A stretch of DNA of 64,000 bases from Verrucomicrobia bacterium LP2A (GTDB lineage Bacteria; Verrucomicrobiota; Verrucomicrobiia; Methylacidiphilales; Methylacidiphilaceae). The translations under genes were made by a program, and so were the position numbers. The stretch covers positions 372,001 to 436,000 of the forward strand of contig JAFS01000001.1 of NCBI GenBank assembly GCA_000526255.1, given 5' to 3'. Of this stretch, positions 23,902 to 29,278 are shown piece after piece. Every line of letters begins with the position of its first letter. Positions within the stretch are counted from its first letter, which is position 1. The notes under the pieces are model-generated. The model was not told the origin of the DNA, did not search any database, and worked only from the letters and a program-made list of their open reading frames with translations.

Positions 23902-24522
23902 TCAGTCCAAGGAGAGGGAAAGTCCCGCCAGCGCCGCTTTCGTCGTCGCATAGCCCCTGTGACAGATCCCTTCGATGCCCAGCCTCCGGGCTACGTCGAC
24001 GAACATCGGACGGTCCTCGATATAGGCGCATTGCGGCGGGGGAGTCTGCGAGACGTCGAGCGCCAACCGAAAGATCTCCTCGTCGGGCTTCCGTAGGTGA
24101 ACGAAGGACGAGACGATGAAGTAGTCGATGAAGGAGGCCAGATCGAAGGCTTGAATCCGGTGGACCTGAAGCTCCCTTCCTTCGTTGCTCAACACCGCCA
24201 CCTTGAGCCCGTGCTTCGCCTTGAGCTTCTGCACAAGCTCGATCATCTCCGGAAAGGGATAGGATTGAGCGAACATGAACTTCCGGAATTCCTGCATCGT
24301 GAAGGGCCGGCTCTGGTAGAAGACGATCCGTTCCAAATAGCCGTCGAGGGTCAGCTTCCCGACTTCATAGGTGTCGAAGGTCAGGTGATGCCGTTCTTCC
24401 ATCTCTTGAGCATTCAAGCCGAATGCTTCCGCGGCCTTCTTCCGGCATGCGGTATCCCATCCGTTGGAAAGGAGGACTCCCCCGAGATCCAAAAAAAGTG
24501 TGGTGATCGGAGCGCTGCTCAT
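23902..24522 (-). CDS. HAD-superfamily hydrolase, subfamily IA
   Basis: 206-residue phosphatase-like protein. Motif I is FLDLGGVLLS (the catalytic first Asp is present, though the second is Gly in D-L-G-G-V, common in this subgroup); motif II is VAVLSNEG; motif III is the Lys in LRKPDEEIF; motif IV is CAYIEDRPMFVDVA. The cap domain is between about 20 and 95. The substrate is unknown; related proteins act on sugar phosphates or FMN. ATG at 24522, 11 bases after the MFS gene on the same strand. Confidence 0.85.
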   Translation of the reverse strand: MSSAPITTLFLDLGGVLLSNGWDTACRKKAAEAFGLNAQEMEERHHLTFDTYEVGKLTLDGYLERIVFYQSRPFTMQEFRKFMFAQSYPFPEMIELVQKLKAKHGLKVAVLSNEGRELQVHRIQAFDLASFIDYFIVSSFVHLRKPDEEIFRLALDVSQTPPPQCAYIEDRPMFVDVARRLGIEGICHRGYATTKAALAGLSLSLD

Positions 24523-24533
24523 AGGAATAGGCG

Positions 24534-25823
24534 TCACTCTTTCGTGTTTCCGTCCGGTTGGCAAGTGGGAAGCCGCTTCTTCCGATCCTGCCGGGGGGTG
24601 CCGGTTGCGCGGCTCCCGTCGCATCGCCGGAAGCTCCAAACGGCAATCCCGACGGTGCCGAAGGCGCAGAGGCCCGTGCCGAGCAAGATCGTGGCCGGAG
24701 CCCCCCAGAAGCGGGAGACGAGCGCGGCGAAGAGGCTCCCGATGGGGAAGAGGCCTTGAAAGAGAAATGTGGCGATTCCGACTACTCGTCCACGCAGTTC
24801 TCGGACCGCATGCTCTTGGAGGAACGCATTCCCTGCCGAAAGGAAGACGACCAGTCCCAATCCCGCCAGCCCGAGCAGCGCCGTCGAGAAGAGGAACGAG
24901 CGGGAGAGGGAAAAGCAGGCTGCCGAAAGGAGGAAGAGCCCGAGGCCGCCGAAGACGAGCCGGGGGAGCGGAAGGGTGCGCACGAGGCTGGTCGCCGCCA
25001 GGCTGCCCAAGAGGGATCCGGCACCGCTTGCGGAAATCAAGATCCCCAGCCCCTTGGGGCCGCTGTGGAGAATGCTTTCGGCAAAAAAGGGGAGCAACAC
25101 TGTGTACGACCAACCGAAGACCGTCACGAGGCCGATCAAGGAGGCCTGGCCGAGGAGGGGCTTCCTTGCCGCGATGTAGCGGACGCCCTCCCGAAGGGAG
25201 TGGAGCAGGGGCCTTTCGGAAGGGCGTCGCATCGGAGAGGATACCCGGAGGAGACAGCCGAGGGAGACGAGGTAGGAAAGAGCGTTGGTCCAGAAACAGG
25301 CGGCCACACCGAGCGAGGGGATCACGAAGGCGGCGACGGCCGGGCCGATCAAACGCGCTCCGTTGAAGAGCACTGAGTTCCAAGCGACTGCGGCGCGAAT
25401 TTCCTCCTCCGGCGCGACGTCGAGAAAGAGGGCTTGCCGGGCGGGAAGCTCGAAGGAGCCGGCAAGGCCGAGGGCAAAGACGAGGAGGCCCAGAGTCGGG
25501 AGAGAGAGGAGATGGAGGAAGGCAAGGAGGCCGAGAGTCGAAGCGAGAAGCAGAGCCGCGATTTGGGCGAGGATCACGATCCTCCTTCGCGCGAACCGAT
25601 CCGCCATGGCGCCGGCGGGAAGGGAAAAGAGGAGCAGGGGAAGGGAGCCGGCACAAGCGAAAAGGCCCAGCCAAAATGGCGATCCGGTCATCTGGTAGAC
25701 GAGCCATCCTTGGCCTACGTTGTGGACCCAGCTGCCGAGGAAGGAGGAAGCCTGTCCGAAGAAGAGCATCCGGAAGGGGGCGGAGCGAAAAGGGGCCATC
25801 TGCGGAAAAATCTTCATAGGCAT
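24534..25823 (-). CDS. MFS transporter, EntS/drug-efflux-like
   Basis: Inner-membrane transporter of about 429 residues with 12 predicted helices. The block SFLGSWVHNVGQGWLVYQMTG followed by PAGAMADRFARRRI fits the MFS_3 (enterobactin exporter EntS/macrolide efflux) group. Two near-adjacent starts exist (25823 and 25817); the N-terminus KIFPQMAPFRSAPFRMLFFG begins the first helix either way. The substrate is not predictable. It is divergent from the XoxF-like gene, with 173 bases between, and probably co-transcribed with the HAD hydrolase. Confidence 0.85.
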   Translation of the reverse strand: MPMKIFPQMAPFRSAPFRMLFFGQASSFLGSWVHNVGQGWLVYQMTGSPFWLGLFACAGSLPLLLFSLPAGAMADRFARRRIVILAQIAALLLASTLGLLAFLHLLSLPTLGLLVFALGLAGSFELPARQALFLDVAPEEEIRAAVAWNSVLFNGARLIGPAVAAFVIPSLGVAACFWTNALSYLVSLGCLLRVSSPMRRPSERPLLHSLREGVRYIAARKPLLGQASLIGLVTVFGWSYTVLLPFFAESILHSGPKGLGILISASGAGSLLGSLAATSLVRTLPLPRLVFGGLGLFLLSAACFSLSRSFLFSTALLGLAGLGLVVFLSAGNAFLQEHAVRELRGRVVGIATFLFQGLFPIGSLFAALVSRFWGAPATILLGTGLCAFGTVGIAVWSFRRCDGSRATGTPRQDRKKRLPTCQPDGNTKE

Positions 25824-25996
25824 GCGCCTGCCACTCGATAAAATGCGCTGAGTTTTGTTCGAGGAAAGACCGCCTGGCTCTGCAAGAAGATCGGAGCGAC
25901 GGCCGGGCCGCGCGAGCGCCGCGTCGCGCCGCCAAGCAGCGGTTCCGATGCGCGATGCGATTGGGGAAGAGGGGAAGGAGTGGAGGAGGAGCAAGG

Positions 25997-27844
25997 ATGG
26001 GGATCGAACAGTGGACGAGGGGAAGGCAGAGAGGCCATGGGTGCGGTTTTCGGACGAGTTGGATATACCCGCTGACCATCCTTCTGGCCATGCCGTTCTC
26101 GTTGTGGGCTAATGAGGAGCTGCTGCGGCTGGGAGCCGATCCCGGTCAATGGCCGATGCAGGCGAAGAATTACGCGGCGACGCGATACAGCGAGCTTGAT
26201 CAGATCAACGCGAGGACGGTCGAACGGTTGCGCGTGGCCTGGAGCTTTTCCACCGGCGCTCTTCGCGGTCACGAAGGGGGGCCGCTGGTCGTCGGTGGCA
26301 TCATGTACGTTCACTCTCCCTTTCCAAACACCGTCTATGCTCTCGACCTGGCGAAGAAGCCGTATGCGATCCTGTGGAAGTATACGCCGGAACAAAAGCC
26401 GACGGCGGTCACGGAGGCTTGTTATGATACCGTCAACCGGGGGGTCGCTTATGGGATGGGGAAGATCTTTCTCGGAGCCTTGGATGGAGAGTTGATCGCC
26501 TTGGATGCGCACACCGGGGCGGAAGTATGGAAGGCGAAACAGGGCGAGATCGGTCGTGGAGAGACGATCACCGGAGCCCCAATCGTGATCAAGGACATGG
26601 TCTTGGTCGGAATCTCCGGGGGCGAGTTCGGCGTCCGGGGGCGGGTCAACGCGTACGACGCGAACACCGGCAAGCCGCGTTGGGTGGCGTACAGTCAAGG
26701 GCCGGACGACGATGTCTTGCTCGAGGGCAATTTCAACAAGGAATGTCCGCGCCATGGCGGAGAAGGGGAGGGGACGCGATCCTGGCCCGGAGAGCAGTGG
26801 AAGCTGGGAGGAGGCACTACCTGGGGCTGGTTCAGCTACGATCCGGATCTCGACCTCTTCCACTATGGGTCCGGCAACCCGGGCTCCTGGAACCCCGACG
26901 AGAGAAAGGGAGGAGACAACAAGTGGGCCTGCACGCTCTGGGGGCGTAGGCCGGCGACGGGAATGGCCCGCTGGGCCTACCAGATGACTCCCTGGGACTC
27001 GTGGGGCTACGACGGGACGAGCGAGCTTGTCCTGGTCGATCTGCGGATCGGGAGCACGCTGCGCAAATGCGCCGTTCATTTCGACAAGAACGGTTATGCC
27101 TACACGGTCGACCGAGGAACCGGGGAGCTGCTCTCGGCTGCGCCATTCGTCTACGTGAACTGGGCCAAGGGAATCAGCCGAGGGGATGACCGTCCGATCG
27201 AAGTCCCGGAGAAGAGGGCGAAGGCAGGTGTGGACATCAAGGGAGTCTGCCCATCGGCCATGGGTGGAAAGAATCAGCAGCCTGCGGCCTACGACCCGGA
27301 GACCCATCTTTTCTACGTCGGGACAAACAATCTCTGCATGGATATCCTGGCCACGGAGGTCCGCTACATTTCGGGCAGCCCCTACATCGGAGCCGACCTG
27401 AAGATCTACTCCGGCCACGAGGGCCAGGACAAATACTATGGCGAATTCATCGCCTGGGATCCGGTGAAAGCGAGGCGGGCTTGGGAAATCCAGGAGAGGT
27501 TTCCAGTCTGTAGCGGCGCTTTGGCGACCTCCGGCGGCCTGGTGTTCTACGGAACTCTCGACGGCTGGTTCAAAGCCGTCGATGCCCGGACCGGGGTCGT
27601 TTTGTGGCAGCAGAAGCTCGGCTCGGGCATCGTCGGAAGCCCGATCGCCTTTCTCGGACCGGACAACAAGGAATACGTGGCCGTCTATTCCGGGATCGGC
27701 GGCTGGTTTGGCTTGCCGGTCGCCCTCGATTTGCCCAAGGGTGATCCACGAGCGGCCATGGGGGCTGCGGGAGCGGCCTACGATTCTGGCCTCCCGGAAT
27801 CGACAACCCCGGGAGGGGAGCTCGTCGTCTTCGGCCTGGAGTAG
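25997..27844 (+). CDS. XoxF-like PQQ-dependent dehydrogenase with altered active site
   Basis: Periplasmic eight-bladed propeller quinoprotein, 615 residues. The start is fixed by GGAGGAGGAG just ahead of the ATG. Signal peptide ends near SLWA-NEEL (38/39). XoxF (lanthanide methanol dehydrogenase) signatures are clear: HSPFPNTVYALDL, GISGGEFGVRG (metal ligand Glu210), SGNPGSWNP (Asn294), DRGTGELL (Arg373) and CPSAMGGKNQQPAAYDP. By alignment to known XoxF, the catalytic Asp in W-D-Y-D is Gly337, while the lanthanide-specific Asp339 is kept. The vicinal disulfide over PQQ is Cys142-Tyr143 instead of Cys-Cys. A conserved P-V-W-S-G Trp is Cys505. The stacking Trp in TTWGWFSYDP remains. No xoxG or xoxJ is adjacent. 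It is probably a divergent paralogue; activity on methanol is doubtful. Confidence 0.88.
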   Translation: MGIEQWTRGRQRGHGCGFRTSWIYPLTILLAMPFSLWANEELLRLGADPGQWPMQAKNYAATRYSELDQINARTVERLRVAWSFSTGALRGHEGGPLVVGGIMYVHSPFPNTVYALDLAKKPYAILWKYTPEQKPTAVTEACYDTVNRGVAYGMGKIFLGALDGELIALDAHTGAEVWKAKQGEIGRGETITGAPIVIKDMVLVGISGGEFGVRGRVNAYDANTGKPRWVAYSQGPDDDVLLEGNFNKECPRHGGEGEGTRSWPGEQWKLGGGTTWGWFSYDPDLDLFHYGSGNPGSWNPDERKGGDNKWACTLWGRRPATGMARWAYQMTPWDSWGYDGTSELVLVDLRIGSTLRKCAVHFDKNGYAYTVDRGTGELLSAAPFVYVNWAKGISRGDDRPIEVPEKRAKAGVDIKGVCPSAMGGKNQQPAAYDPETHLFYVGTNNLCMDILATEVRYISGSPYIGADLKIYSGHEGQDKYYGEFIAWDPVKARRAWEIQERFPVCSGALATSGGLVFYGTLDGWFKAVDARTGVVLWQQKLGSGIVGSPIAFLGPDNKEYVAVYSGIGGWFGLPVALDLPKGDPRAAMGAAGAAYDSGLPESTTPGGELVVFGLE

Positions 27845-27930
27845 GCGGCCGGTCGGCGGCGGAGCGGCATTCCCGCGGCGCCCGCTTCGGAGCTCGTTGC
27901 GAAGCGCACCATCCGGAGTAGGTTATTTCC

Positions 27931-28302
27931 ATGAAGACAGTCCTGACGAATGAGCGCTGCACCGCCTGCCGGAAAGATGCTCCCCGGCTGACGGACGCCG
28001 AGGTGGCGGAACTCCAGCACAAGGTGCCTCAGTGGACGGTCGGGCAGAGGGATGGCATGCCGATCCTGGAAAGAGTCTTTTCCTTTCCCGACTTCGCCGA
28101 AGCGCTACGCTTCGGCCGGTTGGTCGGCGAGCTCGCCGAGCAAGAGGGGCACCATCCGGCTATCCTGACCGAGTGGGGGAAGGTGACGGTGAGCTGGTGG
28201 ACTCACAAGATCCGCGGACTGCATCGGAATGACTTTGTCATGGCGGCAAAGACAGGTGCCCTCTACGAGGCCGAGGTCGGGCGCTCCACCGGGAAAGAAT
28301 GA
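27931..28302 (+). CDS. phhB: Pterin-4a-carbinolamine dehydratase
   Basis: Recycles 4a-hydroxytetrahydrobiopterin produced by aromatic amino acid hydroxylases; some bacterial homologues instead assist RubisCO or tRNA-queuosine related steps. 123 residues with the active-site block EQEGHHPAILTEWGKVTVSW and THKIRGLHRNDFVMAAK. An N-terminal C-x2-C pair (CTACRKDAP) is an extra. It lies 86 bases after the XoxF-like gene on the same strand and is followed by a strong terminator. No phenylalanine hydroxylase gene is in the window. Confidence 0.9.
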   Translation: MKTVLTNERCTACRKDAPRLTDAEVAELQHKVPQWTVGQRDGMPILERVFSFPDFAEALRFGRLVGELAEQEGHHPAILTEWGKVTVSWWTHKIRGLHRNDFVMAAKTGALYEAEVGRSTGKE

Positions 28303-28375: not shown

Positions 28376-29278
28376 CTACGCGGGAATCTCGCGAGCTTTC
28401 CGGTCGAGGAAGGTGAGCTCGGAGATGGCCGACTTGTCGAGTTCGCCGGAGCCGAGCTTGACCAGCCGGTCGTACTGACACTTCGTGGCATCGGCGAGCG
28501 CGATATGGAGGCCCAGCTCGCGCGCGAGCCCCAAGGCGATTCCCGAATCCTTGGCGGCATGCTCCGCCGAGAAGAAGCAGCTATGCTCCCGGTTTTGCAT
28601 GTCCTCGCCATCGGTCTGTAGCACCCGCGAAGCGGCTCCAGTCTGGCTAAAGACGGTGCGGATCATGTCGAGATCGAGCCCGAGAGCATGCGCCAGACCC
28701 AACCCTTCGGCCAGCCCTAGGGTATTGATGTTCATGACCATGTTTACCAAGGCCTTGACCTGGGCCGCCTTGCCCGCGCTTCCGGCGTAGGTGAGGGCCG
28801 TGCTCAGCGCATCGAGGATCGGCTTGACTTTCTGGAAGACGGCTTCCTTGCCGCCGACCATGAGGTAAAGCTTTCCTTCCCGGGCTTGCGGGATGCTCGA
28901 TGCCATGCAGCCTTCCAGGCTCGAGGCTCCTACCTTCTCGACGATCTTTTCTACCTCGACATGCACCTTCGGGCTGACGGTCGCGCAGTTGATGAAGGTC
29001 TTTCCGGCAACCTTGCCTCGCAGGAGATTGTCTGCAGGAGATTCAAAAATGCCGAGCTGCGCCTTATCATCGGTGACGACCGTGAAGATGATGTCGGCGA
29101 GCTCCGAGACCTGAGCGAGAGTCGAGCAGGCCGTTGCGCCGATTTCGGGCGCGAGCTCCTTGGCCGACTCCGCTCGCACGTCATAGACCGCCGTGACATT
29201 GAATTTCTTATCGTGCAGGCAACGGGCCATGTTGGCTCCCATCCGCCCGACCCCAACAAAACCGATCTTATCGCTCAT
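28376..29278 (-). CDS. NAD(P)-dependent beta-hydroxyacid dehydrogenase family protein
   Basis: 300-residue member of the 3-hydroxyisobutyrate/tartronate-semialdehyde reductase family. The Rossmann motif GFVGVGRMGANMA is at 6-18 and the catalytic Lys is probably Lys175 in GKAAQVKALVNMV. The usual substrate motif D-A-P-V-S-G-G is here EGCMASS (122-128), and the usual D-x-S-T-x-x-P reads NCATVSP. The substrate may therefore differ from glyoxylate-pathway acids. The start ATG at 29278 has GGAGGAAG directly upstream; a TTG four codons earlier is less likely. Confidence 0.85.
   Translation of the reverse strand: MSDKIGFVGVGRMGANMARCLHDKKFNVTAVYDVRAESAKELAPEIGATACSTLAQVSELADIIFTVVTDDKAQLGIFESPADNLLRGKVAGKTFINCATVSPKVHVEVEKIVEKVGASSLEGCMASSIPQAREGKLYLMVGGKEAVFQKVKPILDALSTALTYAGSAGKAAQVKALVNMVMNINTLGLAEGLGLAHALGLDLDMIRTVFSQTGAASRVLQTDGEDMQNREHSCFFSAEHAAKDSGIALGLARELGLHIALADATKCQYDRLVKLGSGELDKSAISELTFLDRKAREIPA

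Follow-up and report, generated by a model that had tools for sequence, protein, structure and literature searches.

A XoxF2 protein of Methylacidimicrobium that lacks the catalytic aspartate is probably a retained pseudoenzyme

Background

Is a XoxF-type protein without its catalytic aspartate still a methanol dehydrogenase? The question is raised by one gene in a stretch of 64,000 nucleotides (here called the window; G000:C1:372001-436000) from a 2.47-Mb Methylacidimicrobium genome. An original prediction, made from the letters of this DNA, had described the product of this gene as a XoxF homologue with an altered active site. The genus serves as a model in lanthanide biology, and the presence of 'two methanol dehydrogenases' has repeatedly been taken as metabolic flexibility. 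In PMC8546591, PMC8498564 and PMC12482762 the XoxF2 of this genus is treated as a methanol dehydrogenase. No remark on the missing aspartate was found in the passages searched, and an earlier report in supplements or subscription papers is possible.

Results

Identity and fold

The mature part of the 615-aa protein aligns end to end with the XoxF2 of strain SolV (4MAE; E 2.8e-286; 67% identity). Its N-terminus NEELL corresponds to residue 1 of 4MAE, and subtraction of 38 from the residue number gives the SolV numbering. The profile of the PQQ-dependent methanol/ethanol dehydrogenase family (TIGR03075) is matched with 630 bits at a cut-off of 480. An AlphaFold2 model (pLDDT 83, pTM 0.88) superposes on 4MAE with TM 0.91/0.97 and an rmsd of 1.7, and together with the alignment this confirms the whole-length homology to XoxF that had been seen by eye. 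In the protein tree, the orthologues of seven Methylacidimicrobium genomes form one clade (SH-aLRT 100), which is sister to the XoxF2 of Methylacidiphilum (SH-aLRT 95); by descent, the protein encoded in the window thus belongs to the XoxF2 clade. Membership in the Acido-empty-quinoprotein group A (TIGR04528) was rejected, as the score of 283 bits lies below the cut-off of 650. By its name, this family has a quinoprotein fold and is regarded as free of PQQ, whereas the window XoxF2 keeps most PQQ contacts.

Active site

Compared with SolV XoxF2 (4MAE, 6FKW), the window protein shares the clade, the whole fold, the ligands Glu172, Asn256 and Asp301 and the stacking Trp238 (here Trp276), but differs by the exchanges Asp299 to Gly, Cys105 to Tyr, Arg326 to Lys and Asp388 to Asn. 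The 4MAE alignment is ungapped at Gly337, and neither a misalignment nor another Asp in register could explain the missing residue. In PMC9291206, the equivalent Asp (303 in MxaF) is called the catalytic aspartate, and PMC11845868 counts the residue at the Asp299 position as one of four lanthanide ligands provided by the protein. Since Asp299 is both base and metal ligand, the exchange to Gly removes both functions and the metal site is altered, too. The MxaF variant Asp303Glu (1H4J) folded and was crystallised; it says little on Gly337, because Glu retains the carboxylate.

The original prediction had thus identified Gly337, the loss of the Cys-Cys pair and the remaining residues Asp339, Glu210, Asn294 and stacking Trp correctly. 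It had, however, named the wrong arginine: Arg373 was listed as retained, but the position of the active-site Arg is occupied by Lys364 in all seven orthologues. This Arg, by alignment SolV residue 326, is Arg354 in 6DAM and Arg331 in MxaF and belongs to the second shell (PMC8028316). The predicted exchange of a conserved Trp for Cys505 is present in the window, but is confined to one subclade with three of the seven orthologues. The features of the gene and its surroundings are compiled in Table 1.

Table 1. Features of the xoxF2 locus (window coordinates; SolV numbering refers to the XoxF2 of 4MAE)
Feature	Position	Strand	Basis or remark
HAD hydrolase, conserved neighbour	23902..24519	-	gene-order comparison
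MFS transporter ORF, divergent, conserved neighbour	24534..25994	-	translation probably begins at an internal ATG
Conserved block GATAAAATGCGCTGAGTTTTGTTCG, promoter candidate	25837..25861		alignment of 7 upstream regions; function inferred
Shine-Dalgarno GGAGGAGG ahead of ATG 25997	25982..25989	+	GAGGAG core
xoxF2-clade PQQ dehydrogenase homologue, candidate pseudoenzyme	25997..27844	+	intact ORF, 615 aa
Signal peptide, residues 1-38	25997..26110	+	cleavage site inferred from alignment
Cys142-Tyr143 replacing vicinal Cys104-Cys105 disulfide over PQQ	26420..26425	+	alignment; Tyr143 (TAT, 26423-26425) aligns with SolV Cys105
Glu210, metal ligand kept (SolV Glu172)	26624..26626	+	alignment
Asn294, metal ligand kept (SolV Asn256)	26876..26878	+	alignment
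Gly337 (GGC) replacing catalytic and metal-ligand Asp299	27005..27007	+	4MAE alignment
Asp339, lanthanide-specific ligand kept (SolV Asp301)	27011..27013	+	alignment
Lys364 replacing active-site Arg326	27086..27088	+	alignment; PMC8028316
Cys505 replacing near-invariant Trp467	27509..27511	+	only 3/7 orthologues
86-bp gap where Methylacidiphilum has xoxJ and xoxGJ (cytochrome cGJ)	27845..27930	+	partner-gene loss site
phhB-type pterin-4a-carbinolamine dehydratase, conserved downstream neighbour	27931..28302	+	gene-order comparison
NAD-binding 3-hydroxyisobutyrate dehydrogenase (HIBDH)-like protein, conserved neighbour	28376..29278	-	gene-order comparison

Distribution of the substitutions

All seven XoxF2 orthologues comprise 615 aa without internal stop and are 82-96% identical. 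Gly337 and Tyr143 are fixed in each of them, the residues being constant while the codons vary silently (GGC/GGA and TAT/TAC). The substitutions are hence not specific for one assembly, and the concordance of seven genomes rules out a sequencing error or a pseudogene of a single assembly. Eight pocket residues are likewise kept in all seven (Glu93, Arg148, Ser207, Glu210, Trp276, Asn294, Asp339, Trp570), including the combination Asp339, Glu210 and Asn294, which is the lanthanide-site signature of XoxF.

Both Asp299 and the Cys pair are intact in 85 of 85 non-redundant relatives (none carries the substitutions), which belong to varied XoxF and PQQ-ADH clades of Verrucomicrobiota, Acidobacteriota, Methylomirabilota, Gemmatimonadota, Pseudomonadota and others and which, having been retrieved with patterns from the window XoxF2, sample its neighbourhood and not all PQQ enzymes. 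From marine archaea, quinoproteins that likewise lack the disulfide have been reported (PMC11845868). The 85 include five XoxF2 proteins of Methylacidiphilum and one of a third genus, which are normal at both sites, as is XoxF1 of Methylacidimicrobium (seven copies in six genomes). A search for the motif W-G-[YF]-D-G in 289 Verrucomicrobiota genomes yielded only two Methylacidimicrobium matches and one unrelated protein, which looks by eye like an S9-type peptidase.

A XoxF-like group of Gemmatimonadota (L069, L070, L073, L081, L083, L098) has Lys at the position of the active-site Arg and Asn in a GGKNQQ motif, with the Asp intact. The occurrence of the Lys/Asn pair in this group and in Methylacidimicrobium XoxF2 suggests that the two positions may covary. 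Lys364 and Asn426 were dismissed as markers of inactivity; Lys364 alone is not diagnostic, since these six relatives combine Lys with an intact Asp.

Selection

For the seven XoxF2 genes an omega of 0.058 was obtained (IQ-TREE, MG+F3X4), compared with 0.044 for XoxF1 of Methylacidimicrobium and 0.011 for XoxF2 of Methylacidiphilum; these values are averages across sites, and synonymous sites are biased in the GC-rich xoxF genes. The 97 columns that are near-invariant among the relatives fall into 89 which are kept in all seven XoxF2, four which are changed in all seven (N74T, C143Y, A316G, D337G) and four which are mixed, W505C among them. In the tree, the stem of Methylacidimicrobium XoxF2 is long (0.44 versus 0.18 in the Methylacidiphilum sister) and the inner branches are short, which fits a single burst of change followed by constraint. 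Between the genomes G000 and G005, XoxF2 is 87% identical, and its functional neighbours lpd and HAD are 86% identical each. The GAGGAG core upstream of the start is present in 7/7 orthologues, and the conserved block is located in the intergenic region between xoxF2 and the divergent MFS gene. The original prediction had disfavoured decay and had proposed dN/dS as a check; an omega far below 1, full-length frames in all seven genomes and the conserved ribosome site and upstream block bear this out.

Gene order and expression

The xoxF2 locus is ancestral, with the same neighbours as in Methylacidiphilum, and a recent horizontal gain was rejected because of these syntenic flanks. The order in Methylacidiphilum (G007) is HAD, MFS, xoxF2, xoxJ, xoxGJ, phhB, HIBDH-like, lpd; in G008, xoxF2 is also followed by xoxJ and xoxGJ. 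By contrast, the window and the loci of G003, G004 and G005 show HAD, MFS, xoxF2, phhB, HIBDH-like, lpd, and xoxJ and xoxGJ are absent between xoxF2 and phhB in these four Methylacidimicrobium loci. For the remaining three genomes, the contigs cover the left flank, where MFS adjoins xoxF2, but not the phhB side.

The XoxF1 of genome G005 is identical to the enzyme of M. thermophilum AP8 (7O6Z) in 590 of 590 residues, and its xoxF2 (L005) is therefore the xoxF2 of AP8. Transcription of the latter was 85-fold below xoxF1 at maximum growth rate (PMC7907005).

The XoxF1 system

The original prediction had also called for a search for a second, normal xoxF; XoxF1 with intact Asp and Cys pair is present in six of the seven genomes. 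A normal xoxF1-xoxJ-xoxG operon lies away from the xoxF2 locus in G000, the genome of the window, and in G004. Within G000, XoxG is best matched by the protein of this operon, and PqqC is encoded. The AP8 XoxF1 (7O6Z) stems from the same organism group and has the same fold as the window XoxF2 at about 50% identity; unlike the latter, it keeps the CC pair, WDYD and Arg and has xoxJ and xoxG. It is highly expressed (PMC8546591).

Directly upstream of xoxF1, a sigma-54 response regulator and a HAMP sensor kinase are encoded (L110:10583-15920 (-), L114:9130-11959 (-)), and a TonB receptor was also seen upstream in L110. Relatives of the kinase have 74-93% identity in the other six Methylacidimicrobium genomes and about 34% in the sister genera. 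The kinase/regulator pair is a candidate for a lanthanide-responsive regulator.

Discussion

The XoxF2 of Methylacidimicrobium is annotated as a spare methanol enzyme, but has probably become catalytically 'dead' and been kept for a different task. We consider it probable, though far from certain, that it is a displaced XoxF2 which became a pseudoenzyme in the stem of the genus and was selectively retained for a role other than methanol oxidation, probably in cofactor binding or regulation. Methanol oxidation by an ancestral verrucomicrobial xoxF2 would have passed to the XoxF1-XoxJ-XoxG operon in the Methylacidimicrobium stem. The displaced protein would then have lost its partners xoxJ-xoxGJ, the catalytic Asp (Asp299Gly) and the vicinal disulfide (Cys105Tyr), and strong purifying selection would since have preserved it as an exported protein of the eight-bladed PQQ-dehydrogenase fold. 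We infer no or very little methanol dehydrogenase activity, since with Asp299 gone a base that could take the proton from the alcohol is missing, as is a dedicated cytochrome that would accept the electrons. Any residual activity might proceed via another base, e.g. Glu210; a Glu equivalent to this residue has been proposed as base in related enzymes.

The evidence for the loss of methanol oxidation is convergent but indirect: it comprises the missing base and ligand, the disulfide, the partner genes, the replacement enzyme and the low expression. The evidence that XoxF2 is still in use is good, given omega, intact frames, the conserved ribosome site and upstream block, and the neighbour-like identity. 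The original view that methanol oxidation is lost or changed is therefore well supported by genus-wide fixation, purifying selection, the conserved locus and the loss of the electron-acceptor genes. Its suggestion that the protein may still bind metal and PQQ is plausible in that most pocket residues are kept, but is weakened by the loss of one of four metal ligands, of the Arg and of the disulfide. As XoxF2 lacks two of the sequence features that mark XoxF methanol dehydrogenases and its partner genes are missing, the name methanol dehydrogenase should be withheld until activity has been assayed.

The main rival to a pseudoenzyme is a PQQ enzyme that is still active but whose chemistry has changed. 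It would bind PQQ and lanthanide and oxidise another substrate (a bulkier alcohol or an aldehyde), with Glu210 or Lys364 as base, and would pass its electrons to the XoxG encoded in the XoxF1 operon. The eight conserved pocket residues from Glu93 to Trp570, the purifying selection, the presence of PqqC and the one XoxG left in the genome would suit such an enzyme. However, the catalytic Asp is invariant in all 85 relatives despite their varied clades, dedicated acceptor and chaperone genes are gone from the locus and the pocket is further eroded by W505C in one subclade, and we regard this reading as unlikely. The current literature view, a fully functional alternative methanol dehydrogenase for other conditions, e.g. 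other lanthanides, is stated as a possibility in PMC7907005, PMC8498564 and PMC12482762. It agrees with the kept Asp301 signature, but catalytic Asp, vicinal disulfide, active-site Arg and the adjacent xoxJ/xoxGJ are all missing, which makes it very improbable. Least probable of all is a decaying paralogue, i.e. an early pseudogene without function, for which the low transcription in AP8 (PMC7907005), the replacement of two residues that are invariant elsewhere, the missing partner genes and the longer stem branch might be put forward. Decay is largely refuted by omega, and there is no frameshift or stop in seven genomes; 89 of 97 near-invariant columns, the Shine-Dalgarno sequence and the upstream block are kept, and XoxF2 diverges no faster than lpd and HAD.

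What a retained pseudoenzyme would do can only be guessed on precedent. The Glu/Asn/Asp ligands and most PQQ contacts might allow binding of PQQ and lanthanide, and the protein could serve in the periplasm, at low abundance, as a sensor or regulator whose signal might reach the two-component system encoded next to xoxF1. In Methylorubrum extorquens, XoxF influences regulation via sensor kinases (Skovran 2011, cited in PMC9291206; PMC11845868). By analogy, a regulatory or cofactor-sensing role is proposed here, which would suit the low abundance; the Methylorubrum protein is, however, also an active enzyme, whereas the window XoxF2 is without the catalytic residue. More specifically, a catalytically dead XoxF might be dedicated to sensing lanthanide or PQQ as a periplasmic receptor and so control the xoxF1 system of Methylacidimicrobium, an idea that we hold only tentatively and judge rather doubtful. 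Published searches found no lanmodulin and no proteobacterial-type lanthanide uptake genes in Methylacidimicrobium.

If XoxF2 is a pseudoenzyme, conclusions on metabolic flexibility and surveys which count xoxF2 as a methanol dehydrogenase need correction. In that case the genus would also provide a natural mutant of the catalytic Asp, in which the part played by Asp299 in catalysis and in metal binding could be dissected, and a way to ask whether sensing by XoxF is separable, a question raised since mxa expression in Methylorubrum was found to need XoxF.

Further observations on the xoxF1 genes

Two XoxF1 copies with 97% mutual identity are present in G000; for strain LP2A, PMC8498564 reports two copies with 96% identity. 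Close to the active site, the G000 copies XoxF1a and XoxF1b (L002, L003) differ in WDYDA versus WDYDG and in YYNTGNPG versus YCNTGNPG. The second copy (711351-713120 (-); L111 = G000:C1:703001-721000) lies without a neighbouring xoxJ or xoxG and adjoins an ORF which by eye resembles a group II intron reverse transcriptase, with near-identical ORF stretches to either side of it. The XoxJ of Methylacidimicrobium (539 aa; L110:6742-8361 (-), L114:5291-6910 (-)) carries a long C-terminal ankyrin-repeat domain after the MoxJ-like domain, with matches to Pfam Ank families that reach E values of about 1e-37 in L110, whereas the XoxJ of Methylacidiphilum has 290 aa and is without the ankyrin-repeat domain.
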